Position numbers and translations under genes: made by a program. From Anodontia alba (taxonomy: Eukaryota; Mollusca; Bivalvia; Lucinida; Lucinidae): a DNA stretch of 64,000 nucleotides. The notes below the pieces were generated by a model that was not told the DNA's origin, searched no databases, and saw only the letters and a program-made list of their open reading frames with translations. The stretch covers positions 29,332,581 through 29,396,580 of the forward strand of contig OZ024828.1 of assembly GCA_964016985.1 (NCBI GenBank), read 5' to 3'. The stretch's first letter is position 1, and each line of letters starts with the position of its first letter. This document shows positions 48,118 to 64,000 of the stretch, one piece after another.

Positions 48118-48310
48118 CTATCACTGAGGTAAGTGTTTTATGAACCAGTGACTTTACCAGTCCTTATATATATCACTGAGATAAATGTTTTTAACGAACC
48201 AGTGATATACAGCTGGTCCTAAAAATATCACTGAGATATGTGTTTTTTATGAACTAATGACATTACATCTGGTCCTTAAGTATATCACTGAGGTAGGTGT
48301 TCCATAAACC
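48118..48310 (-). repeat. minisatellite derived from the end of APEH exon 6
   Basis: Four units of about 52-57 bases, each starting TATCACTGAG and holding a GT(A)3-like and CCAGTGA segment. The unit at 48283 includes the exon 6 stop codon region, so the coding end appears to be the source of the array. The other three lie just downstream of the stop. Confidence 0.75.
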
Positions 48311-48390
48311 ATTTAAAGATGTTGATGAAAGCATCAGCCTCTGAGTCTACCTTCACTATCGGGTGCCCATTGTCTGGGTAAGCTATATAC
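48285..48390 (-). CDS. APEH: APEH terminal exon 6 (catalytic His)
   Basis: Acceptor tatttttcag, stop TGA at 48287-48285. Encodes [20 protein letters not shown] then [14 protein letters not shown]. The His in NGHP is 32 residues after the catalytic Asp. Length and end agree with the APEH C-terminus. Confidence 0.88.
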
Positions 48391-51300
48391 CTGAAAAATA
48401 CAACAATACTTCTAATCAAAGCTATAGATATGAAAGTTGGAACAAGGCAATTTCAATGGATATCTACAATATATGTTTTCATGAAGATATCAATATCAAA
48501 ATCATGGATGGAAAAAACGTTATCTACAGCCATGCTATCAGCCAGCCTTGGTGGCTCAGATGCACATTCTACTGGTGATCAGGAGGTCAGGGGTTCGATC
48601 CCACCCAGGTCCAACAACATTCTTTAGTAGAGATTGATCATAAAATATTTTCTACGGCCATTTTCTCCCTTCCGCTAATTCAAGAAGGGCAGTTGTCAGT
48701 TTCTAGCAAAAGACTGCACAAATACTGGTTAGCTTGGACTAAGCCTGTCCAGGAAAAGCGTGGTTCAGTAAACTGGACCGGTTCAACATGACCCTAATTG
48801 GTTGACTGGGCCATAAAACCTCAACTCAATCAAAAAACAGCCATGTTATCAAGCCAAGTGGCAATCACAACAGAGCAGACAACAGATTTGTAATATGTTT
48901 TCCATTTTTTTTTTTCAGATAAAATAAGACTTAATATTTCATATGAATCATCTGCTAGGTAGACAATTCTAAAGAAATACCATATCTTATTTTCTCTGAA
49001 AAAAAAAAAAAATAGAATGTTGCCTGCTGCAGTATTGATGGGAGCTTTGTAAGTATTAGCTATTAATATTCAACATGTTATCAATACTGCAGCAGATGAC
49101 AATTTGGCTTATTTTTTATCTCAGAAAAAAACAACAAAAAAACATAAGGCTTGACATTTAACATCTACCTAGCAGATGATTCACATGAAATGTCAAGTCT
49201 TATTTTCTCTGAAACCGGCATCTAAGGGGAATAAATACACTTTCGGGAGGGGGGTGGGGGGGGGGAGGGATGGCGGGGAGGGGCAGTATCTGTCTTAATA
49301 CCAAATAGGAGATGAATCAAATCTGTGATAAGGTTAAGATTTAATGAAGTCTTAAAAAACTTTAATGAAAACTTTAACATTTAAATTCTAAGTCTGTGAC
49401 CTCTACCTCAAGGTCATGGTCATGAATGCTGATGGTGCTGATGAAAACTTTTGACCAGTATCTATCATGATACCTAATAGGAACTAAATCCATCATTTAG
49501 TTTGGTAGTAATGAGATCCTAAAAACTTTGCCGTATAATTTTAACATGAAAACTCTAAGTCTGTGACCTTGACCTTGACCTAAGTTGGTGGGGATGGTAC
49601 CGCGCAAAATTTTGGACTACTATGTATCATCATACCAAAGAATCAAATCGGTGATCAGTTAGGAAATAATGAGGTCTTAAAAACTTTAATGAAAACATTA
49701 ACATTTAAATTCTAAGTCTGTGACCTTGACCTTGACATGACCTAGAGTGGTGGGTATGGTATTGCACAAAATTTTGGACCAATATGTATCATCATACCAA
49801 AGATGAATCAAATCGGTGATAAGGTTAGGAAATAATGAGGTCTTAAAAACTTTAAAGAAAACTTAAACATTTAAATCCTAAGTCTGTGACCTCGACCTCA
49901 AGGTCACGATCATGAATCCTGATGGTGCTGATAAAAACTTTTGACCAGTGTCTATCATAATACCAAATAGGAACAAAATCCATCATTTAGTGTAGAAGTA
50001 GTGAGATCCTAAAAACTTAGACATAAAATTTTAACATGAAAATTCTAAGTCTGTGACCTTGACCTTGACATGACCTAGAGTGGTGGGAATGGTACTGCAC
50101 AAAATTTTGGACCAATATGTATCATCATACCAAAGATGAATCAAATCGGTGATAAGGTTAGGAAATGAGGTCTTAAAAAACTTTAACGAAAACTTTAACA
50201 TTTAAATTCTAAGTCTGTGACCTCGACCTCAAGGTCACGGTGGACCAATATGTACACTGACTTTGAACTCATTATTATCAAATTTGGCATGCTATCAACC
50301 ATTAAAATGTCAAATGATATTATTTAGCCTCAAAATTTATCAATCCATATAAGTCTAAGTGCTATTTCTTGAAACTAATGCTTGCCCAACTTTCAAACTG
50401 TAAAATGCCATGTCCTACCTGTACTTCTTAGCACTGAATGCCATGCTATTTCTTGCCATTCTCAACCAACAAAAGGTCATGCTATTTCTTTCAATTAAAA
50501 TTTGCAAAGCCAGTTACCCATAAAAATGCCAAAACTGTTTCTTTCCATTAAAAATTACCCAAAATATCAACCTATAAAATGTCAAATTCTATTTCTTGGT
50601 TTTAAAAAATTATTCAATTATCAACTCATAAAAAGTTACATGCTTTATCTAGCCATGAAAATAGCCCAACTACCAACCTATAAAATGTTACTTTTGGTAC
50701 TAGGGTCATGCAAAAAGTTCTATCACTAATAGGCTTCCTTGGTTTTATATCAGGTATATTTTAAAATGCTTCACTGCACTTGAATGGTGTATTCAATAGC
50801 TAACGATACCTGTTTATTTTGTTCAAATTTCTTTCCAACTGACTGAGTTATTTCAAATTGAAATAGATGCAGTCATATACACTGCCCAATTTACTTGTTA
50901 CAATAAGAAACGACCAAGCAAAGAATGGTCAGGAGTCCACCTTTTACATGACAACGCCTCCTCTCATAAGTGTGAGGTTGTTAGTCTTTTTTGGCTTCTG
51001 AAAAGGTGAAAGTTTTAAACCATCCACCTTATTCGCCTGACCTGAGACCCTCTGACTTCTTTTAATTTCCAAGGCTTAAAAAAATGTTTTCTGGAATTAA
51101 GTATATGCCTAGGAGTTCTCTTGGCGGTGCTATTTATCAGTGTTTCCAACAGACTAAGTAAAAAGGTTACAAAAATGTGTTTCAGTAAAGGGGGAATACT
51201 TTGAAGGTTTGAAATAAAAATATGTTTGATAAAACGCAGCACCGAAGTAATCAGAACCCAGTGACATAACATTTTGCAGAACCCTCGTATTGAAAACAAT

Positions 51301-54300
51301 CCAACTATCAACCCATAAAATGTCAAGTGTTATTCCTTGCTTTTACAACAAATACCCAAATATCAACTTATAAAATGCCAAGTGCCATTTCTTGCCATTA
51401 AAATGGTCATGTTATCAATACATAAGATGCCAAGTGCCATTTCTTAAAAATTACTCAACTACATATATAAGCCTACAACAAGCCAGGTGCAGTATCTTGC
51501 CATTAAGCAGGATTTGGGTTAAAATGTGTAAATTACCTGACAGGAACATTTCTAGCCTTAAGAGCCTTGTACATTTCATTACTTTGTTTAGGTGGGCAAC
51601 GAAGATCCCCCAGACCAATCATCAACATTGTAGGGGTCTTCACCTAGTAAAGATATAACTCAGTTGAGCCATACCAAAATAAAATCTTTATTAGATCAAA
51701 ATAAAAGCAAACAGGGAACACAGCTCCAGATTAGATGGATACCCTGATAAATAATTTTCATATTTTTCCATGAAAACATATATTGTGAGTACTCATATTC
51801 CTCAAAAACAGACTTTTTTTTATCCAAGAAAGGTTTAATAAATTGATACATAGTATTAATACAATCATAAAATGTGGCATCTGACAGCCTGTAAAATTTC
51901 AGTTAGTCTCTCGTTTGTGAACTGAATCAAAAATGAAATTATCTTTTGTCGAATCTCTGAATTAATGTTGGCAATATTAATTCAGAGATACAATCAAAAA
52001 TCATTTCATTTCAAGAATGAGAGACTAACTGAAATTTTACAGGCTGTCAGGTCCCACATTTTATGATTGTATTAATACCATGTATCAATTTATTAAAACT
52101 TTCTTGGATAATAAAATGATTACTTTTGAGGAATATGGGGCCTTTAGAAGTACAGAGGCACTTCTAATGAGCACCTACAACCTACAACATGTTTTTTGCG
52201 GAGAAATAAGAAAATATCAATATTTTGTTTTACCAGAACAAACAACTTATCTATAGCTATGCAGAGAAGGACCCATACTAGCTTGCATGTCTGTGTCTTC
52301 CCTATCTGCCCCCAAAAATCTATATAAGCATGTGCACGCAGGGTTACAATGTGGCTTTGGTAAGCAGCAAAGATACTGGCTTCTACAAATTCTGATCAGG
52401 ATGTTTACTGTTTGCCGTTGGGTTCCACATATCTTGTAGAACCTAAATGTATATATAGCAAACATTTAAACCTTGTCAGATCAATTTTCACAGTTATAGA
52501 AGCTGTAAAGGATATATGCCAGTTGCCGATGCCAAATTGTATCTTTTCACATGCTCTGGTGAATATCCTCGCAGGGGAGGCAACTTTACCAAATTGTTTT
52601 TACCTCCCTTCTGAAAAAGGGTCTATGCTATAAGGAAAGAATTTGCTCATCTTGGGAGCAAATTCTTTCCTTTTAGCACAGACCCCTTTTCAGAAGCGGC
52701 ATGGTGTATAGGAACACAAACAGGAAGTCACAAAAGTTGTCTCTCTTGTAAAAAAATTGCGGAAAATCTACCAAGTGTATCCAGTCCCTTTAAGATTCAG
52801 ACTTGACCTAATTACCTGACCGGTTTATTTCTGGCTTTCAGGGCCTTGTATAATTCATATCCTTGCTTGGGTGGTACTCTCCGATCATCAAGGCCCAACA
52901 TCACCATGGTTGGGGTTTTAATCTGTATAATATAATACCACTAATTTTCATTTTAATACATGTACTAGTTTATAGAAAGGATTATCTTGTTGTTGTTTTT
53001 TTCTCATATATTATGTACCTGGTACTATACTGCTAGAAAATATTTGTGATGAATTTAAACTTCATTACCCCACACCTTTTTGGAGATATTCTGTCACCCA
53101 TGCCTTTTTGGCCAACTCCATCTCCTCCTATACCCACTGGATGGACTGCAACAAAGCTGGTTGCATACTTCCTTCATGTACAACAATCGTATAATACCAT
53201 GACTTCTGTCCGGGGAAGGGGGGTGGGGATGGGGTGTGGGGAGTGAGGAAGGAGTCAAATAAACTGACTGATTTTTGACTGTTACTCTACATCCTCCAAC
53301 CCCTTTCAATGGATTTCAAGCAAATTTGCTTTATGCTTTCCTTGCATGCTAGTCATACAACACCACATAGATTTTTCTTGAATCTGTCTCGAAGGCTGTT
53401 GCCTGACCTTGATCACTTGTCTGTTGTTGGCTCAGTGCTGTTGTACTAGAGGTTTTTATATGCTCCGACTTACAGCCGATTGGAGTCAAGTTCACAGCAC
53501 TGCTTCATCAAAGTTTTGATAAATGAGTGAGAAAGTGAATGAGTGAGTGAGTGAATGAGTGAAGAATATTTTATTATTGTGACATAATGCTATGCGATTT
53601 GATTTGTTTTGTAGTTTTACAGCCCAGACAAAAATGTTAAGGTCATGTTAACGCAATCACATTTCTGAGTGTTTAACCAGTACTTTGTACAAACTTCTGC
53701 CAGTAACTGACAGCTGTTCTTCTTGCATCAGCAGAAGGGTGAGACTATCCACATAAATCATTTCAGGGTCAATTTCCACGAAAGTTAAATGTATCTAGCC
53801 CAGCTGGGATACAAACTTGCGACCCCTGGATCTGTTGACTCGATTTGGTTGCACTACAGTCTGTGCTACGGAGCCTGGCTCAGATACGAGGAAAATTTTT
53901 ATGAGCCAGCACACGAGAAAACCTACAATAAGACCTGTGTAACCAACAAAGACTCAGATCATCCTGTACATCCATCCAGAACTGCAAGGGTTCTCGTTTA
54001 TCCCTCTTTGAATAGCCTGGAAGCTGTATAAGGTACATGTGACCAGCAAAGACTCAGATCAGACTGTGCGAATGCACAGTCTGATCTGAGTCTTTGCTGG
54101 TCACTCAAGTCTTATTGTAGATTTTGTCAAGTGCCGGCTCTTATTTCTCTATCAAACCATAAGTTGTGTGCACTAATTTGAAGTGCAATATAGAAGTGAA
54201 TGAAGTGCTCCTGATGAGTATCCACCATATATGTTTTCATGGAAAAATAAGAAAAACATCAAACTTTTTTTTTTTGAAAAAAAAAAAAAAAAAAAAATGC

Positions 54301-57300
54301 CTTATCTGTAGTGGTGACCACATGACAGATTTCAACTAAATTTGCTTTGTATCTTCCTCATGTATTGCGGTCATGCAATACCATGATTTTAAAATATCAT
54401 TTTGTGTGATTTTTAAATTGGTTTATGGTAATACTGGCTAAACAACTTCACTTGGTCAATAATTCCTTAAACATTTAAACATTGGTCCCAACCTTTTAAA
54501 ATCAGCAGGCCGACGACTATGTATATACACTTTTCAAAAAACTACTCAGCCAGCAGGAAGAGAGGATCAATTATCAACAAAGCACTTACATTATCAACAT
54601 ACTGCAGAGGTGATCTATTCCACATTTCTGTAGCACTAGGACCATCCGGTAATGACTTAAAGGTGAACTCCAAGCCACATTCTACTAAACCCCTGAAATA
54701 AAATAACATACATTACCAACATTTTAGGGGTGACTTATACCATAATTCTAGAAACTATGTCCATTTGATAAAGAAATAAGGTGAAAGGGAAGTTATGTAA
54801 TTATGTACTAATCACTGAAATAAACCAGATGGCATGCATCATCAAATTTATTCTTCATCTTTAGAGTATTACATTTATGTCTAGAATTAAGTTTCCATCT
54901 CTACTGAGAGCACAATATTGTATGCTGAGACATTCTTTATTCTATTCCTGGAGCACTATACTCTATGTCCAGATATATTCTACATTTGCTCCCTCTTAGC
55001 CCCCACCCATTGTTTTTGAAAAGTTTCAAAAACTAGGGAGGCATTTTCCTATCTGTAAAAGTCCTCTCCATCACGAAAACACGCCTATATAATTTTGACC
55101 CCCTCAAACCCCACTTTTATATAGTAAAACTGGGGTTAACAGGGGTATACATTATTTTTCTTATTTCTGCTTTAAACATAGATTGTGGGTACTCGTTAGA
55201 ACTGCCTATGCAAGGCAGTTCTAATGAGTACCCACAATCTATATTTTGAGTGGAAATATGAAAAGTATCAGAATTTTTTATCTTAAAGTTTTCATTTTTT
55301 GGTGGTAAAATTTTCAGTATATTTGAATAGGCATATTTTCGTAATGCCTCGGTCAAACAACAGCAAAATCTTTCATGTGTATTCACTCCCCTTAAATTTT
55401 GCATATTAATGGTAACTAATCATTCTGATAAACAATAATAATGATAAAAAACATTTCTTTGAACCTTGCAAAAATTAACCTAATTATCGCTAAAATTATT
55501 GTAGAAACTAGCAATCTGGTGGTAAAACCTGTCCCATTCAAATTCATTTTTTTTTTTTTTTTTTTGTTCTTGTGTATGTAAAAACTTATTGCAGAGTACT
55601 ATACCGGACAATACCATACATTTTTTCTAGTTTATTTAGAAAACCTGTATCAATAAAATCAGTGTCCAAGATGTATTTGAAATAAGCTGAGGTCATTGTA
55701 CCATCCATAACTCTGGTATGAATGAAATAATGTATGGTAAATGTCCTAAAATTTTAAACTTTTTATTCCATTTTTTTTTTTCTTACGCATTTGCTTCACA
55801 AAATATTTGTGAAATCATAAACAGTGTAGACATAATTCTGATGCTCCTTCAGGAGCAGTTTGATCAGGTTCTGCAATGTTTGTATATGCCATTTGTTTTT
55901 TCAGGAAAACTGGTGCACAAGATATTAGCACTTACCATGCTATGGGCAAATTCAGCAGACGACAAAACTGATGATTTTTCTTTTATTTTTCCTAGAAAAT
56001 AGGATCTGACACATCACGCAAACTGTCTCCTATGGAGACAATTTGCATGCAGTATCAGATCTTATTCCCTAGGAAAAATAAAATATGTCTTCTTTTTCCT
56101 AGTAAATAGGATTTGACTATTCATGCAAACTGTGTCAATCATTTCTAATTTTTCCTAGAAAATAGGATTTGACCATTCATATAGATTGTTTCCTTAGGAA
56201 GTGTCATATTCTATTGTCAAGGAAAAATATTTCACAATGCTGTCTGCTGAAATATTTACCCAGCATGCAAAGTGTTAGGACAATAACCAAGTATGTCAGA
56301 GTTTACATGGCAGATATGACTAAGATAAAGTCATGACTCACTTGTCTGGGTTATCTGCAGTCCCAAACTTTGCTGAAATGATCAACAGATCAAATTATGT
56401 CACTGTTAAAATGAAAGCTTCCAAGAGGCTTATTTTCTGATACTTTGTAAACTTCATTCTTTAATTCCAGAAAAATATTTCTTTCAAGTGCTTTATTTTT
56501 CTAATTTATGAAGGGCCATCAAGGCGATGTTGTCAATAAAATGTTTGTTTTGATGAAAAGAAAGCTCCATCTGCAAAGATACCTTAATCAGCCATGCAGT
56601 TTTGGAGGACTTGTTGAAAGTTGTATCATACGGGTTGCATCAAGCGAAAATATGCCTTTGAACATGTGCAAAATTCAGGGCCAAGTTGTTCATTGTTAGC
56701 TTAACAAGCTTGTTTATGACAAATTTGTTAACTGTTATAGCTAAGGTATTTTCAAATATATTGCTATTTTTGCTGCAAAAATGTGAATGCAAAAGCTACT
56801 CACATTTTTGCAGCAAACAAAATCGACATATCTGCCATATTTCAAGATAGAAATTTTAACATCACGTTAGCAAACAACTTTGTTATGTTTTGAACAACTG
56901 GGTGCAGATTAAGATTCAACCTGCTCATGTGCAAAGTATCATCCAGTGACAGTGTGAAGGCCCTGATTAGATTGCATGGATGAGCAGGCTGATCTGGGCA
57001 TTCACTGTCCATTTATGCCCAAAGACACATTTTCACATGACATGGCCCATATATGATCAATGTGGCCAGACTGGATGTCAGTTCCAATATCTTTAGCAAA
57101 TCTGAAAACCCTTGTTCCAAGGATGCTTAAAATGTAATGTTTTTAACTGGCAGTGATTTCCAAGAAAATAAAAATGTTAAACTGTAATACCCTGCCATTA
57201 TCGTTTTGCGCCAGCAGATAACTCAGTCAAACACTGACGAAATTTGCCTATTAACCATCCCAAACTAGATCTCCTTCATATCAATACATGTACCAAATTT

Positions 57301-60300
57301 GGTTAAAAGCCCTTGACATTTACTCAAATTATCAGCCAGAAACAAAAATATGGGCATGTCTAGGGCAAATTCCGTCAAAATTTGACGAAATTCGCCCATT
57401 AGCAATCCAAAACTAGATATCAACAATATCAATGGACATACCATCTTTGGTGAAAATCCATTGATGTAGCTCCATCAAAATTTGATGAAAATTGCCCATT
57501 AGCTATCCCAAACCAGATCTCCACAATAACAATGCACACACCAAGTTTGGTGAAAATCTGTTGATGTTTACTCAAGTTATCATCTGGAAACAAAATATAG
57601 ATGGACGGACGACTGACAGACAGACCGAAGAACAGACACACGGACGTCCAACGTGAAACCGTAATACCCTGCCACTATTGTGTGGCAGGGTATAAACCCC
57701 ACCAGTATTGTGTGGCGGGGTATAAAAACCATAATACCCCACCACTATCGTGTGGCAGGGTATATAAAGCATCTGTATGGCCATGACTATTCCATGGGAC
57801 ACTTCAGTTGCCATGCAATCCAATCAAAATGACCAATGGGTATAATTTTGCCAAAATAAAGTTGATTCCTCCTCATTTGTGCAATGTTTCTTCCAGAGTA
57901 GGATTATTCTGCTTCAGAAGTTTGGTGTTCTCATTCAACCCTTAAATCACCAAGTAAAACTGCAACAGATCACAATCTGGATTTTTAAAAAATTTTCAAA
58001 GAAAACAAGTCTTGAAATTTCATGTAAACTGTCTGCCAAGCAGACGATTTACATAAAATGTCAAGAATTATTTTCTCTAAAACATAAAAAAAAAAAATAA
58101 TTTAAGAATATCATCTGCTACAAATTTTGCTTTAAAACAGTTAATGGAGGGACAGTTAACAGATGAAAAGTAATTACTATAGCCTAGCCTGAGCAAAGCT
58201 CAAGTGAGCTAAAAACTGGAACCTAGTGACCCATTCTCTTTAATTTACAAAAACTGTAGGCCTGTAATTAAAGACTGAAGTTCACAAGTAGATTAACATG
58301 CGTAAAATGTCCTAAAATTTCAAATACTATTCCATACTTTATTTTATTTAGTATAGAATGGCAAAAACTGTAGACCCAGATCAGACTGCTCCTGCAGTCT
58401 GATCTGGGTCTACACTGCTTGCATATGCCATTTTGTTAGAAACTTTGTTGTATGAAATTTTAGGACATTTACCGAAATGACTTCACACTTAAAGCACCAG
58501 TCACAATAGCAGCGTACAATATTTTAGAAGATCTCTTTATTTTTCCAAGAAAATAAGGCTTGAAATTTCATGTAATCATCTAACAGATGAGTCACATAAA
58601 ACGTCATGCCTTATTTTATCAGAAAAATAATATATAATAATAATGACCATTAGAATGTCATATTTGCTATAACTTTAAATAGCGCTCAAGAGTTAAAACA
58701 TAGTCCCAGTTAAGGGTATGCAAGCATTGTCCTAATACATATTTTTTCTTATTTATCCATCTAAAATCATGTTATAATTATTATGTAGCTATTAGAACCA
58801 TCTTGGCCATGTGGTTTGGATGCGTGTCTGACTGGTGACCAGGAGGTTGCGGGTTCAACCCCTGCCGGGTCGGCAACATTCTTTCACGGAGATTGATCAT
58901 GAAATATTTTCTACAGTCATTCTCTCCCTTTCACTGATTCAAGAAGGGCAGGTATCAGTTTCTGTCAAAAGAATGTGCACAATACTGGTTAACTGTTTAG
59001 TGGACAAAGCCTGCTCAGTAAAAGTGTGTTTAGGTAAGCTGACTGCGTCTGATATGACCCCATTGGGTTGACTGGGTCGTAAAACCTCAACACAAACAGA
59101 CAAATATATTTTTCTTACTTCACCATCAAACCTCATATGTAGTTATTAGAATCATTGGCCATGTGGTTCTAAAGCATGCCCAAAAAATGTTTATGACATG
59201 TTTGACGACTGCAGATCCTACAGTTAATCAGAAAGGAGCTGAACATTAGGGCTGACATAAAAAAAGTCAACCACAAAATATAGGTAAGGGTCAGAATATG
59301 AACAGGACATTTGAGTCCATCTAAGCGAGTAAGCACATGCTAAGCCCGACACCAATGACATAGAAATATCAAAACGGTTAGACCGTGAAAAATAGGTCAT
59401 AGTCATAAAATGATACCACAATGCTTGAGTCATTGTTATGAAGAATGTGTATGTCATATTAGATAACTGTAGGTGCAACTGTTATTCAGAAATGGACCTG
59501 AACACTAGGGTGGTCACAAATGATAACAGATGGATGGACAGAAACCCAGAGGTCTACATAGCAGCAGCATGCTAAGCTGTGAATAAAAAAGAACTGAAGC
59601 ATGAGAAAGATATACACAGCAGACTTGAATCATGATGATGTTTGTGTTTTACATCCCTTTCAACATTACATGTATTTTAAGTCATATCGAGACAATGGAA
59701 GGATGATAATGAAAGGCTCTTTGTAAGGAAGTGCTGTACAGTCATGAGCTGAATTCTGACCCCAGCTGGGTTCAAACCCAGGACCTTGAGATCCAAAATC
59801 GGGAGTGCTAACCACTTGGCTACCCAAATGCTTCAATGTTTCAGATCAACCTGTGCAGTTGTGCAGACTGATCACATTCTTTACTGAAAAATACTTGTTC
59901 AAAGGGTGTACAGCAAACACTTAAATCAGACTGCAAGGATGCACAGGCTGCCGGGGCCATATCATAAAGTATATTTTCTCATGACTCAAATATTAGTACT
60001 GTTTATGTGAAAGAAGTGGCTTATCTGGGGCTATGTTGAGAAAAATGGTTATAAAAATCTTACCATAATTCTCCTACCATAAGTATTCAAACAGACAGGC
60101 CTGAGCAAACTGTGTAGAATTGGATCAGATGCTGCAGAATGCAGCATCTGATCAAGGTCTACACTGTTTGCACTCATCCAGTAATTTTTAAAAAAGTCTG
60201 CAGATGGTCAAATCATGTTGTTAAAATTTCAGGAGAAGTATGGTAATGAGTTGAGGCGCCTGAATATTTAGTTAATATACAGTACGAGACATCATGCACT

Positions 60301-63300
60301 CACCAATCTGGTATATCAGTACTCCCAAACATAGCTGAAATAATACAGGATTTCGCTTATGCATCTACCGTATTTACCTTAACGTTTAGCATGCTGAGTA
60401 AAAATTTCAGAAGATGACATATTAATGATATTTTTCTTATTTTTTCGAGAAAATAGACTTTGACAATCACTGAAATCTAAGAATATCCAATACGGACTTG
60501 GTACTTCACGTGATGCATCATCAAAATCTCACAACATCTCATTCTGACTCTGAGAGTTTGAAAAGACATCAGCATAAATGCTTTGCTTAGTTTTGTCTCC
60601 TTGCTTTATGTCTTAAAACCCTTCTTTTCTTCTAGACTGGTATTCTGGTGCCTTGAAAGGCCTGTGCTGTATGATTGTGGCCTTCCCTGGCTATCACCAT
60701 TTTTATTTGGACTGAAAATTTTAAATATTTTATTTCATCAAATACATACAGAGAAAAAACCCGAAACTTCATTCATAGTGACCTGATACAAAGCAAGGGG
60801 TCACTGGCAGTAGGTGATCATTAATCTTCTGCATGCTAAGTGTGTGTGTAAGGGGGGTGGGGGGGGGGGTAGCTGTGATCATTTGCTTGAAATGTCAAAG
60901 CCAATTTTCTTGGAGAAATAAAAATACTTCAAAATGATGTCTGTTGATCCCCCCTCCCCCACCGGCCCCCACCCCCCCCCCTTACACACACACTATAAGA
61001 AAATAAGAAAAATATTGTCTATATGCCATCTGCTGAATTAACCCAGAAAGTGATAAAGTTTAATCAAGGAAATTGGGAACCAGGGTTCACGAATCTGTCA
61101 GGCAAATCTATCAGGGTCAACTTTGTTGTTTTCTCGTCATACTTCAACTGATGCCTCTGGCATTTTCCTGTAATCCTCAGTATTTTCTATACCCATAAAA
61201 TATCTACTTGTGAAGAGCTACAAATGTCACTGATGTTTGTCTATCATATCCGACAATTATGATCACAAATACCCACTTCCAAGTGTTCATGGATAACTGG
61301 CTTATTACACAAAAATTAAGTCTTTGGTTAACCCTTTCAGCTAGGCAGACCAAGTAGACCACAGTGCTAACAGTGTAGATCCAGATGAGATGGCTCGTAA
61401 CGAGCCATCTCATAAGGATCTACACTGTTTGCCATTCTGTTTCCAATTTTGTACTTACAGCCATATTTATAACACTAGACGTGCCCAAATACAATGATGA
61501 AACTTCACAAAATAAGGGGTGAAAGGATTAAAGGAGGATACATGCCATATAAAAACAGCTCGGCTTTGTTTGCAAGACACAGAGTTACATGTAGTTTTCT
61601 CTGCAGCTTAGCTCATGTAATGTATACTTGATGAAGAGGATGATGATTTGATGTTTTACATCCCTTTCAACATAATTTAAGCCATCGTGAGACAATGAAG
61701 AGGTGATAATGAAAGGCTCTGTGCAATGAGGTGCTATACAGTCATTAGCTGAAATTCCACCTCTAGCGGTGTTTGAACCTGGGACCTTATGATCCAAAGC
61801 CTGGAGCACTAACTGCCTGGGCCCAGTTGTTCAAAACTAACAATGTCATTAGTTAACACACTGAAATGCATTGTTAAAACTTTGATCATTAAATATGACA
61901 TATACGCTAATATTTTTGCTGGAAAAATGTGAGTAGCTTTTGCATTAGCAAAAGCTACTCGTATTTTTTCAGCAAAAATACCTGTGAATTATATATTGTT
62001 AACATTCCAATCACTAATGAGCTTGATAAGCTAACAATGCTTTGAACAACTGGGCCCTGGCCATGTGGATGCTTCTGTAAGGTATACTTACTGGAAATAT
62101 TTATCACAGGATTTCTGCATACTGCAGCTTTGTAGAAATCCTGCAATGGAGAGAAGACATAACAAGCTCTGTCAGAGAAACTGATTTATTCACACTACAC
62201 ATTTTCTATAAAATAGCATCATCTCTAAGGCTTAATTTGAACAATAACATTAAGGAGGAACCAGACTACTATTGATGTCACACAGTTTTGGTACCCTGAA
62301 AAATAGTTTTTGTTTTGTTTTGTGTTGAGGTTTTAGGGCCCAGTCAACCCAATGGGGTCACATCGAGCACAGTCAGTTTACCTAGCCACACGTTTACTGG
62401 GCTGGCTTAGTCCTCTAAGCGGTTAACCAGTATTGTGCACACTTTTGCCAGAAACTGACAACTGCCCTTCTTGAATCAGCGGAAGGGAGAGAATGACCGT
62501 AGAAAATATTTCATGATCAATCGCCACAAAAGAATGTTGCCGACCTCGGCGGGGGTTGAACCCGCGACCTCCTGGTCTCCAGTCGGACTGTAAAAAATAG
62601 TAGATGTTGTATACAGTGTAAGGTAAAAAAAAAACTGCATTGTTCTATTCATTTCAGGCCACAGGAGGTTCCTGGAGGAGACAAATTCCAGATAGTAAAA
62701 GATTCTGTAGGGAACTATTTGGCTGGGTGGAGTGTTAAAATGAATCGGTCGGGCATTCCAGTTTGTTACCCTGAACAGGAGGATTTCTTGGGATGTCATA
62801 TGGCGGGCAATATCATGTGTTTTTTAAGTGATGAAGAAGACATGACAATCCCAGGATCTGTTGCTGACTCAAGTGGCTGTTCCATCCCACTGAAACCTGG
62901 ATCTGATTTAGGCCCATGGAACTGTAGCAGGTGAGACACTTTTGATTTCTTAGCATTGTAGCCTATGGAGAAATTAATAGGGGTGTGTAACCTATAGGAG
63001 ACTTAATACACTTTTCTGCCATTATATTCAAGGGAGACAACTTCTGTGACTTTCTGTTTGCTTTTCTGCACACCAAGCCCCTTCTGAAAAGATCTTACCT
63101 AGAAGGAAAGAATTTGCTTCCACTGAGAACAAATTCTTCCCTTTTTGAGTAGACCCGTTTTCAGACAGGAGGCAAAAACAATTTTGACAGTAACCTCCCT
63201 TGTGAAAGTGTATTCATTAAGGGGCATGACTATGCTTACATTTAGGAAATATATCTAATATGGAAATATTGGCCTACCTTGTTATTGGGATTTTCTCTTA

Positions 63301-64000
63301 AGATAAAGAATTTGCTCCCCTAATTCATTTTTTTTTTAAGAGTATTGCCCATTTTCTGAAGGTTTCAAATACTAGGGAAGCATCTTTTTATCTTTTTGTA
63401 GGCAAAAGTTGTCTTCCTTTGCAAAATGGGCACAAAATCTTCCAGGCTGATTGACTTACCTTAAAACCATTGGCTTCTGTACTTTCTGAGAAATTCTTGA
63501 TATAACAAAAACACCACAGAAGGATAGGAATGGACAGACAATGGCAAACCAGTATAAAAATGACTTTTTCAAACAAGGGGCATAAAAAAACATGGCTCCA
63601 ACGTGATCCACCCAATGTTACAACTCTACTATAACCTTTATTAATACCATTAAGTAATCCAACCAATCACATGACATACTTACAGGGTACTGGCCAATCA
63701 GATGGCAGGTAAGAAAACCACCATGTGATCCACCCCAAATCTCAACTCTGTTTCTACTACAACCTTCACTAAAACCACTATGCAATACACCCAATCACAT
63801 CACATACATACAGTGTGCTGGCCAGTCAGATGGCAGGTAAGAATACCACCATGTAATTAACATGATAACACCATGTAATCCTCCCCATATCACAACTCCG
63901 TCTGTAATTTAATCTTCACTAAAACCATCAAGAAACCCATCCTATTAGATGACATACTTACTGGGTATTGACCAATCAGATGGCAGGTTAGAAAACCACC
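48285..64000 (-). CDS. APEH: acylaminoacyl-peptidase (acylamino-acid-releasing enzyme), C-terminal catalytic half, with duplicated exons
   Basis: Serine peptidase of family S9 that removes N-acylated residues from peptides, normally in the cytosol. Exons in transcript order: array of exon-1 copies (63684-63747 best), 62092-62140, 60304-60334 or 56342-56372, 54590-54692, 52816-52922 or 51537-51643, 48285-48390. Key motifs: GGSHGGF with the nucleophile Ser, [30 protein letters not shown] with the acid Asp, YPDNGHPIV with the His. Joined through one copy of each exon, Ser to Asp is 88 residues and Asp to His is 32. This equals the spacing I recall for mammalian Ser587, Asp675 and His707. Introns are AG/GT bounded and phases agree. 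The N-terminal propeller exons lie beyond base 64000. Alternative reading: remnants of tandem APEH genes, but exon-by-exon adjacency argues against it. Confidence 0.9.
48543..48838 (+). mobile_element. S1 SINE
   Basis: Head TTGGTGGCTCAGATGCACAT and GGGGTTCGATCCCACC, tail GGGCCATAAAACCTCAACTC. It lies just upstream (on the - strand) of the APEH terminal exon. Confidence 0.85.
49080..49215. repeat. P4 hairpin
   Basis: TAAGGCTTGACATTTAACAT and CACATGAAATGTCAAGTCTT arms. Confidence 0.7.
49240..49282 (+). repeat. G-rich tract, quadruplex-like
   Basis: Several runs of four or more G within 43 bases. Confidence 0.8.
49255..50250. repeat. tandem array, unit about 160-170 bp
   Basis: About six units with AAATTCTAAGTCTGTGACCT, TGACCTAGAGTGGTGGG and CAAATCGGTGATAAGGTTAG. 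Two sub-types alternate (with and without CATCATTTAGT). Confidence 0.86.
50285..50697. repeat. minisatellite, left part
   Basis: Units of about 55-60 bases with CAACCTATAAAATG, GCTATTTCTTGCCATTAAAA and ATTACCCAACTATCAAC-type segments. Interrupted by a deleted mariner. Confidence 0.8.
50698..51289 (+). mobile_element. internally deleted mariner with both ends
   Basis: Left end TACTAGGGTCATGCAAAAAG, right end ATTTTGCAGAACCCTCGTA, inverted with respect to each other. Inside is the 3' part of a transposase: [11 protein letters not shown] near 50945, a SPDL-like segment and FSG further on, with stops. The 5' half is deleted. It splits a minisatellite that continues on both sides. Confidence 0.82.
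51290..51505. repeat. minisatellite, right part
   Basis: Same unit: CCAACTATCAACCCATAAAA, AAGTGCCATTTCTTGCCATT. It ends about 30 bases from the donor of APEH exon 5a. Confidence 0.8.
51537..51643 (-). CDS. APEH: APEH exon 5, copy a (variant Asp exon)
   Basis: Acceptor tttactag, 107 nt, donor gtaatt. Encodes [20 protein letters not shown] then [15 protein letters not shown]. Same length and phases as copy b, 26 of 36 residues identical, catalytic Asp kept. Differences between copies fall largely on third positions in the shared blocks, which suggests both were under protein-level selection. Confidence 0.85.
51762..52215. repeat. F1 MITE split by a large palindrome
   Basis: Left F1 arm CATGAAAACATATATTGTGA at 51771, right arm CACTTCTAATGAGCACCTAC at 52158. 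Between them, 51798-52137 is another foldback, from ATTCCTCAAAAACAGAC to ACTTTTGAGGAAT, with arms of about 150 bases. Confidence 0.85.
52570..52770. repeat. K foldback MITE
   Basis: ACCTCCCTTCTGAAAAAGGG, palindrome AAGGAAAGAATTTGCTCATC and inverse. It lies beside APEH exon 5b. Confidence 0.85.
52816..52922 (-). CDS. APEH: APEH exon 5, copy b (canonical Asp exon)
   Basis: Acceptor ttatacag, 107 nt, donor gtaatt. Encodes [20 protein letters not shown] then [15 protein letters not shown]. The second Asp aligns with the catalytic acid. Phase 0 in, phase 2 out. Confidence 0.87.
52930..53600. other. APEH intron, low-complexity parts only
   Basis: Holds a G-rich piece (53213-53245) and a GAGTGAGTGAGT tract (53525-53562). 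No exon recognised. Confidence 0.5.
53605..53892 (-). mobile_element. S1 SINE, diverged, reversed
   Basis: GCCAGTAACTGACAGCTGTT, CTTCTTGCATCAGCAGAAGG and ATACAAACTTGCGACCCCTG are the reversed body and head. Confidence 0.68.
53899..54145. repeat. M5 TIR element with hairpin
   Basis: ATGAGCCAGCACACGAGAAA to TTTTGTCAAGTGCCGGCTCT, centre GACCAGCAAAGACTCAGATC and inverse. Confidence 0.83.
54148..54300. repeat. F1 MITE, diverged, with A run
   Basis: AAACCATAAGTTGTGTGCAC and GAGTATCCACCATATATGTT arms; T and A runs at 54266-54297. Confidence 0.65.
54590..54692 (-). CDS. APEH: APEH exon 4
   Basis: Acceptor ttatttcag, donor gtaagt, 103 nt. Encodes [20 protein letters not shown] then [14 protein letters not shown], matching the APEH stretch after DIPDW through the SPIRY-like motif. 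Decayed copies lie next to it at 54712-54814 and about 54905-54985. Confidence 0.86.
54712..54814 (-). pseudogene. decayed copy of APEH exon 4
   Basis: On the - strand this 103-base stretch follows a ttatttcag and aligns base by base with exon 4 over much of its length (for example CAAATGGACATAG against the GGATGGTCCTAG region), but contains several stop codons. A fainter third copy may lie at 54905-54985. Confidence 0.6.
55075..55350. repeat. F1-like long element
   Basis: Outer AAACACGCCTATATAATTTT and AATAGGCATATTTTCG, inner palindrome GTGGGTACTCGTTAGAACTG. Same as 29106-29375. Confidence 0.8.
55735..55900. repeat. H3 element, partial
   Basis: GTAAATGTCCTAAAATTTTA at the left and a degraded H-core around TGCTCCTTCAGGAGCAG. 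Confidence 0.68.
55985..56230. repeat. P4 hairpins, about three in a row
   Basis: AATAGGATCTGACACATCAC, then AATAGGATTTGACTATTCAT, then AATAGGATTTGACCATTCAT; only the first has a full right arm. Confidence 0.75.
56342..56372 (-). CDS. APEH: APEH exon 3, copy b (variant)
   Basis: Also exactly 31 nt with the same phases, acceptor atcatttcag and donor gtgagt. Encodes KFGTADNPD with the final split codon making Lys instead of Trp. Joins in frame to exon 2 and exon 4, as copy a does. Including both copies shifts the frame. Confidence 0.78.
56676..56906. repeat. G foldback MITE, diverged
   Basis: CAGGGCCAAGTTGTTCATTG to TTTTGAACAACTGGGTGCAG. Confidence 0.82.
57184..57770. repeat. tandem-core element with repeated right end
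   Basis: Left end GTAATACCCTGCCATTATCG. Core of three units with CCAAACTAGATCTCC and CAAAATTTGACGAAATT. Right part TACCCTGCCACTATTGTGTG with GGCAGGGTAT occurs about three times (57660-57770). Confidence 0.8.
58300..58478. repeat. H3 foldback element
   Basis: GTAAAATGTCCTAAAATTTC to TGAAATTTTAGGACATTTAC, core GTAGACCCAGATCAGACTGC. Confidence 0.82.
58795..59106 (+). mobile_element. S1 SINE, full length
   Basis: Head CATGTGGTTTGGATGCGTG and GCGGGTTCAACCCCTGCC, body GTGCACAATACTGGTTAACT, tail GTCGTAAAACCTCAACACAA. Confidence 0.85.
59107..59630. other. APEH intron, nothing recognised
   Basis: No exon or repeat family identified. Confidence 0.45.
59637..59830 (-). mobile_element. S3 tRNA-like SINE, reversed
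   Basis: TTTTACATCCCTTTCAACAT, ATAATGAAAGGCTCTTTGTA and GGGTTCAAACCCAGGACCTT (reversed B-box and head). A second copy at 61631-61818. Confidence 0.72.
60060..60262. repeat. H1 foldback element
   Basis: TACCATAATTCTCCTACCAT, core AACTGTGTAGAATTGGATCA and GATCAAGGTCTACACTGTTT. Confidence 0.75.
60304..60334 (-). CDS. APEH: APEH exon 3, copy a (canonical)
   Basis: A 31-nt exon with acceptor ttatttcag and donor gtgagt. Encodes MFGSTDIPD plus split Ser/Thr and Trp codons, matching the APEH motif GSTDIPDW. Confidence 0.85.
60839..60994. repeat. G-rich/C-rich foldback
   Basis: GTGTGTGTGTAAGGGGGG followed by a G run; inverse C run then CTTACACACACAC at the right. A P4-like AAATGTCAAAGCCAATTTTC lies in the middle. 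Confidence 0.85.
61365..61438. repeat. short H-core hairpin
   Basis: AACAGTGTAGATCCAGATGA around GGCTCGTAACGAGCC and inverse. Confidence 0.83.
61631..61818 (-). mobile_element. S3 tRNA-like SINE, reversed
   Basis: GATGTTTTACATCCCTTTCA, GATAATGAAAGGCTCTGTGC, GTTTGAACCTGGGACCTTAT. It directly adjoins a G MITE. Confidence 0.72.
61817..62059. repeat. G foldback MITE
   Basis: CTGGGCCCAGTTGTTCAAAA to CTTTGAACAACTGGGCCCTG, centre GAGTAGCTTTTGCATTAGC. Confidence 0.9.
62092..62140 (-). CDS. APEH: APEH exon 2
   Basis: Acceptor ccattgcag, donor gtaagt. Encodes [16 protein letters not shown], the conserved ARNPVINI region. Phase 0 in, phase 1 out. A G-family MITE (61819-62057) ends 35 bases beyond the donor. 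Confidence 0.87.
62311..62592 (-). mobile_element. S1 SINE, reversed, full length
   Basis: TGTGTTGAGGTTTTAGGGCC, GGTTAACCAGTATTGTGCAC, and reversed head GGGGGTTGAACCCGCGACCT. It ends about 65 bases before the + strand exon at 62658. Confidence 0.87.
62658..62930 (+). CDS. unidentified + strand exon, Cys-containing protein
   Basis: Bounded by acceptor attcatttcag and donor gtgaga and open throughout in one frame (first full codon at 62659). Encodes [40 protein letters not shown], a middle with [17 protein letters not shown] and an end with [20 protein letters not shown]. Five Cys and one N-glycosylation site at the end suggest a secreted or extracellular region. I do not recognise the family. 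It lies inside an APEH intron on the opposite strand and no partner exon is seen in the window, so it belongs to a nested or overlapping gene extending to the right, or is an orphan. Confidence 0.6.
63025..63210. repeat. K foldback MITE
   Basis: AAGGGAGACAACTTCTGTGA, AGAAGGAAAGAATTTGCTTC with inverse, TAACCTCCCTTGTGAAAG. Confidence 0.8.
63600..63625 (-). pseudogene. APEH exon 1, copy D, 5' fragment
   Basis: Reads VVTLGGSR and then loses similarity, with no HGG and no donor at the expected place. It is the last, truncated unit of the exon-1 array. Confidence 0.65.
63684..63747 (-). CDS. APEH: APEH exon 1, copy A (nucleophile Ser exon)
   Basis: Acceptor aaacag, 64 nt, donor gtaagt. Encodes [20 protein letters not shown] then Pro, matching the APEH segment around the catalytic Ser. 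Starts in phase 2, ends in phase 0 and joins in frame to 62140. Confidence 0.85.
63812..63900 (-). pseudogene. APEH exon 1, copy B, broken
   Basis: Aligned with copies A and C it reads GGLHG where the nucleophile motif should be GGSHG (Ser to Leu). It also carries an extra 22 bases (about 63850-63871) that shift the frame and resemble the adjoining ATTACATGGTG. Donor is gtatgt. Not able to supply a working active site. Confidence 0.72.
63962..64000 (-). CDS. APEH: APEH exon 1, copy C (cut by window end)
   Basis: Encodes [13 protein letters not shown] followed by donor gtaagt. The part carrying the Ser lies past the window edge. First of the exon-1 array in transcription order. Confidence 0.75.

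Follow-up and report, generated by a model that had tools for sequence, protein, structure and literature searches.

The gene for the protein-recycling acylamino-acid-releasing enzyme (APEH) of the bivalve Anodontia alba most likely encodes the segment with the catalytic Asp twice, in an old, functional pair of mutually exclusive exons. We propose that one internal exon was tandemly duplicated long ago, which would have given two versions of this segment, and that purifying selection on the protein maintained both, with splice sites and phase intact. Of the two copies, a mature mRNA would include one, between the same two neighbors, and two full-length, probably active APEH isoforms are predicted to result. 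Both copies would be expressed, the choice between them would be regulated at splicing, an mRNA including both would be removed by nonsense-mediated decay, and the isoforms may differ in activity. Mutually exclusive exons are a known device, and the APEH catalytic-Asp pair would be a new case of it.

Results

Two versions of the catalytic-Asp exon in APEH

The window, i.e., the whole stretch of DNA that was analyzed, comprises 64,000 nucleotides (C8:29332581-29396580 of the 1.86-Gb assembly). The 3′ part of APEH occupies its right half on the minus strand, and the gene extends past the window; a further 40 kb (L003-L006) was read, giving 103.7 kb in all, and positions in this longer stretch are called extended coordinates. 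When the extended 103.7 kb was searched by tblastn with four APEHs (matches above 27 bits), the ordered blocks began at residue 111 of Potamilus APEH, ran to its C-terminus with most of this span covered, and reached extended coordinate 103,534. The features used below are as follows, in the order of transcription.

63962..64000, minus strand: 3′ end of the catalytic-Ser exon, which contains GGSHGG and runs to extended 64072 (L003)
62092..62140, minus strand: APEH exon encoding 16 residues
60304..60334, minus strand: 31-nt APEH exon
54590..54692, minus strand: common upstream exon (GLVECGLEF...SPLQYVDN), which ends in phase 0 and precedes either Asp exon
52816..52922, minus strand: Asp exon copy b, 107 nt, phase 0 to 2, acceptor ACAG, donor GTAATT, motif DDRR
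51644..52815, minus strand: intron separating copies b and a, 1172 nt, with palindromic repeat elements whose arms fall within 51794-52137 and 52608-52696
51537..51643, minus strand: Asp exon copy a, 107 nt, phase 0 to 2, acceptor CTAG, donor GTAATT, motif GDLR
48285..48390, minus strand: shared final coding exon, which includes the catalytic His and the stop codon

Copy b thus lies upstream of copy a on the minus strand, and both end in CAG/GTAATT. The initial annotation had described two 107-nt exons with phase 0 starts, phase 2 ends, AG/GT borders, 26 of 36 residues in common, and outer junctions at 54590 and 48390, and all of this is right. Among the best 120 of 954 matches to the joined C-terminal piece, bivalve APEHs come first, led by Potamilus streckersoni at 79% identity and followed by those of Mercenaria, Dreissena, Ruditapes, Mya, and Mactra; among solved structures the match is pig APEH (E 2.1e-52). 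The S9 triad is complete, with Ser in the GGSHGG exon, Asp in both copies, and His in the last exon. The PF00326 score is 98.0 bits with copy b and 94.6 bits with copy a, for a joined piece that started with residues from an array copy of the Ser exon (described below). Copy b aligns to residues 663-698 of the pig APEH chain 7px8, where the Asp is residue 675; in this fold the segment would comprise a core strand, the loop with the Asp, and the helix that follows.

The reading frame allows one copy per mRNA

With either copy alone, the spliced frame is unbroken from the Ser exon to the stop codon. If b is joined to a, a stop follows immediately at the junction (...KPVR*), as expected from the earlier claim that an mRNA with both copies loses the frame, and if neither copy is included, the frame shifts and a stop falls in the last exon. 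Thus, both or neither Asp exon breaks the frame, and only one copy is allowed per mRNA; loss of frame on joint inclusion or joint skipping is a common, although not a necessary, feature of mutually exclusive exons. Double inclusion puts its stop about 100 nt upstream of the last junction, and by the usual rule a stop that far ahead of this junction marks the mRNA for decay. This loss of frame is the sole safeguard against double inclusion seen here: the copies are separated by 1172 nt, not by a very short intron, and both have GT-AG borders, so neither steric hindrance nor mixed U2/U12 spliceosomes apply.

Both copies appear to be selected as protein

The two copies are identical at 26 of 36 residues (25 of the 35 whole codons plus a split Arg) and differ at 34 of 107 nucleotides, with 9, 4, and 21 differences at codon positions 1, 2, and 3 (chi-square against equal thirds, p=0.0012). 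By the NG86 method, dN is 0.245 and dS is 2.37, which is saturated and so does not measure the age of the pair, and dN/dS is about 0.1. Except at the acceptor AG and at six donor bases, the 100-nt flanks on each side have scattered matches only. Saturated dS together with flanks that are not alike points to an old duplication in which the likeness of the introns, but not that of the proteins, has been erased. These values, which include the dN/dS comparison that the initial annotation had proposed, support the silent third-position changes and the protein-level selection that it put forward.

Chance placement of the differences does not produce such a pair. When the same number of changes was placed randomly, the mean number of identical residues was 14.6 starting from a and 14.7 starting from b, 25 identical residues were reached in 0 of 20,000 trials from each copy, and a stop arose in 60% (from a) and 71% (from b) of the trials. 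When copy a drifted neutrally by 0.3 changes per site, 1.25% of 4,000 runs kept an open frame with at least 25 of 35 residues; at 0.4 changes per site this fell to 0.1%, and at 0.5 there were none. Judging from these simulations, copy a cannot have long been free of constraint. Pairwise dN/dS alone cannot name the constrained copy, but the simulations, the residues found in the APEH family, and the related exon P0122 (both below) together indicate that a is constrained too, so that both copies are apparently under protein-level selection.

This conservation bears on two other explanations of the pair. In the first, splicing takes up both copies, but one of them nearly always, and the other acts mainly to shut the gene off, as a poison exon through double inclusion. 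The stop that b-a joining makes at the start of exon a, upstream of the last junction, would serve such a role, but a poison exon needs no protein-level conservation, which copy a has, and we consider this explanation unlikely. In the second, copy a would be a relic or a cryptic exon that has dropped out of splicing and is open by chance. Its donor is non-consensus at +5 (as is that of b), a search among short proteins that could have taken transcript-derived ones returned only an apparently unspliced ORF, and decayed partial exon copies exist elsewhere in the gene (the Ser-exon array, and extended 97195-97145 with an in-frame stop). A relic would have to be reconciled, however, with a dN/dS of about 0.1 at saturated dS, two intact splice sites, the neutral simulations, 10 differences that are all residues known in the family, and an a-type exon in P0122 beside an unrelated intron, which makes it still less probable than the poison exon.

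The copies belong to one gene

When exon b was compared with the whole 1.86-Gb assembly at E up to 0.001, two matches were found, b itself and a (three candidates, all scored), and these lie 1.28 kb apart. The initial annotation had raised the matter of separate 5′ and 3′ exons, which would assign the copies to two genes; in the extended 103.7 kb, tblastn finds one upstream exon and one last exon, and the only exon copies besides the Asp pair are partial, decayed ones from two other exons. The Asp copies are therefore internal exons of a single gene with common neighbors, as is expected of a mutually exclusive pair. That two copies exist is all that would suggest two tandem genes or mis-assembled alleles. 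Since the outer exons are single and the assembly has only these two neighboring matches, the pair is unlikely to reflect tandem genes, a retrocopy, or mis-assembly of alleles, and the saturated dS lies far beyond allelic difference; we regard two genes or mis-assembled alleles as extremely improbable.

Two other APEH exons have partial copies. At 63640-64000 there is a tandem array of about 130- to 150-bp units that contain the 3′ part of the catalytic-Ser exon, its source exon running to extended 64072; one extra copy is still readable, and the others have decayed (in-frame stop, truncation). The true Ser exon (64072-63962) is 111 nt long with phase 0 at both ends. The second GGSHGG copy (63770-63684) has four silent and no replacement codon differences over its last 39 nt, and the true exon and the array copy differ at 10 positions over 87 nt (dN 0.078, dS 0.307). 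We considered this copy as an alternative exon and rejected it, without disproving it, on sequence grounds: it is without the 5′ part and has five replacements in the first 12 codons, and the common acceptor of the array, TTTTAG, would give TGA at once after a phase-0 exon. An N-terminal-domain exon also has a decayed partial copy (VVFTG*CHESYRLSLIY, 80% over 50 nt), which lies just upstream of the real exon, at about 3426-3476 of L006 (extended 97145-97195); tandem partial exon copies are present at least twice in this gene.

Copy a resembles a working APEH segment

We compared both copies with 121 APEHs besides P0122, comprising the best 120 of 954 matches plus one from a separate search; these are representatives of 90% clusters, which could hide isoforms, and many are from vertebrates. 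The Asp, the Arg two residues after it (D+2), and the Pro are invariant in 121 of 121 and are kept in a and b. All 10 a-specific residues are present at the same site in some of the 121 APEHs, while among single-base missense changes from b only 86 of 233 (37%) occur there. Because its residues are all found in the family, copy a appears to encode a working segment of APEH. The G before the Asp occurs in 2 of 121, the L at D+1 in 15, and the C at D+3 in 3, while the full G-L-C set occurs in 0 of 121 and a single sequence (P0011) has two of the three.

The initial annotation had noted a change from DDRR to GDLR, which is right, the acid Asp being the second D and kept in both copies; the change of Val to Cys that it placed next to this Asp is three residues after it. 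The Arg beside the Asp (R526 of A. pernix, in a 2006 paper) is reported to separate peptidase from esterase activity. We considered this lead and set it aside, since by the table in PMC4394528 that Arg is D+2, which a and b both keep, so that it makes no distinction between the isoforms. The equivalent of D+3 in A. pernix APH is position 527, which is Val in human and pig, and a docking study places this position in contact with an inhibitor (PMC4394528). This contact would leave room for a change in specificity without demonstrating one. The suggested difference in substrate handling is only partly supported: the D+3 site would allow it, and against it stand the occurrence of G, L, and C individually in other APEHs and the retention of the invariant Asp, D+2 Arg, and Pro.

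An a-type exon on another contig, probably from a second species

Exon a was also searched among proteins of about 57-182 aa, a range that would also take short transcript-derived proteins. No transcript-derived protein with copy a was found in this range, and the sole return was P0122, an 84-aa ORF (ENA) from a 1.33-Mb contig in which 48 residues are followed by a 36-residue a-type exon at the end. This exon is identical to a at 32 of 36 residues, to b at 26, and to Potamilus at 28, and it has the G, L, and C of copy a. P0122 ends after PVR, like the window ORF 51533-51643, and appears to be a genomic ORF that has not been spliced. Over its first 48 residues, 3 of 48 positions agree with the upstream intron of the window; four differences in 36 residues beside an unrelated intron lead us to take P0122 as coming from another species. 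P0122 is good evidence that an a-type exon has been maintained; within its 84 aa it shows that exon and not the pair.

A tree was built from 24 rows, namely a, b, P0122, and 21 hand-chosen sequences of the 121 homologs, with the second Mya model left out. Copy a and P0122 pair with an ultrafast bootstrap of 89, and b falls outside that pair. The a-P0122 pair stands beside Octopus and one other sequence with support of 77, a nearness that is probably, although not provably, convergence through the shared DLR; with 36 residues only, the deeper nodes of the tree are not supported. The second Mya APEH model, P0121 (Mya arenaria ACPH-like, 562 aa), comes from a contig equal in length to that of the first and has parts missing, including the end of the Asp exon, and is probably a poor gene model.

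How one copy might be chosen

The donors of both Asp exons are GTAATT, with T at +5, whereas the four preceding exons have G at +5 (GTAAGT in three and GTGAGT in one), a comparison made by eye against the consensus and over those four exons only. Donors that are non-consensus at +5 would fit regulated exons.

Within the reading of a mutually exclusive pair, the choice could also be made by competing intron pairing. The element at 51755-51796, upstream of a, has two possible partners: pairing with 54214-54255 would loop out b, and pairing with 48466-48490 would loop out a. The stretches are complementary at 90% over 42 nt and 88% over 25 nt, they have the right arrangement, and the computed duplex energies are -48.6 and -30.4 kcal/mol (elements with short flanks). 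However, the pairing element belongs to a dispersed palindromic repeat whose core occurs nine times in the window against 0.31 expected, with many more similar stretches. Opposite copies of such a repeat in neighboring introns are unsurprising; we therefore do not rely on this pairing and hold it to be very improbable as the mechanism.

Palindromic MITE-like elements lie in the introns around the pair at 51794-52137, 52608-52696, 54039-54104, and 51755-51796. A dispersed repeat with a SINE-like look is present at 48615-48716 and 58874-58975 (84% identical), with a similar stretch seen by eye near 62440-62600, and the intron 3′ of the pair contains a tandem array (49343-50241) with a period of about 160-167 bp.

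Discussion

Mammalian APEH, represented by pig 7px8, belongs to the same enzyme family, and we know of no duplicated Asp exon in it. The initial annotation likewise knew of no described pair in APEH, and among the matches listed from open-licence PMC, judged by the openings of abstracts, none described alternative Asp exons for this enzyme.

According to PMC3228551, mutually exclusive exons are recognized by similar length, the same frame, conserved splice sites, and homology, features that 90 of 16,180 non-exclusive exons of the fly X chromosome also show; in the Asp pair both exons measure 107 nt, run from phase 0 to phase 2, and have AG/GT borders, and 26 of 36 residues agree. Tandemly duplicated exons are common; a 2002 study, as cited in PMC9013439, put them in about 10% of animal genes.

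Among bivalve enzymes, the closest precedent is the duplicated exon 10 of oyster alternative oxidase (AOX), described in PMC5589949. As in APEH, a coding exon of this enzyme was duplicated in tandem, and one copy is more conserved while the other is changed next to functional sites; the exon 10 peptides of C. virginica AOX differ at 15 of 41 positions, and air exposure alters the dominant isoform. Unlike the APEH exon, which is internal and has a frame that forbids both copies, AOX exon 10 is terminal with its own stop in each copy, and one AOX mRNA has both. AOX expression has been demonstrated in that work, whereas expression of both APEH copies is a prediction. Mhc, 14-3-3 zeta, and Dscam, named in PMC9013439 and in the reference list of PMC5740500, also have tandem homologous internal exons of which one is spliced at a time, but in APEH the alternative segment holds a residue of the serine hydrolase triad.

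A bolder reading sees a single-locus housekeeping serine peptidase in which splicing exchanges the catalytic-acid segment: the exon pair would be conserved across bivalve lineages, and the choice of copy, which may depend on tissue or stress, would move APEH from one substrate or inhibitor profile to another through Leu or Arg at D+1 and Cys or Val at D+3, the latter a position lining the pocket; this is a tentative idea, and we think it less likely to be right than wrong. The isoforms differ at 10 sites only, so any difference in activity would be easily traced. An alternative exon that swaps the catalytic-triad segment of a peptidase would make the surroundings of the active site, beyond binding surfaces, a splicing choice.
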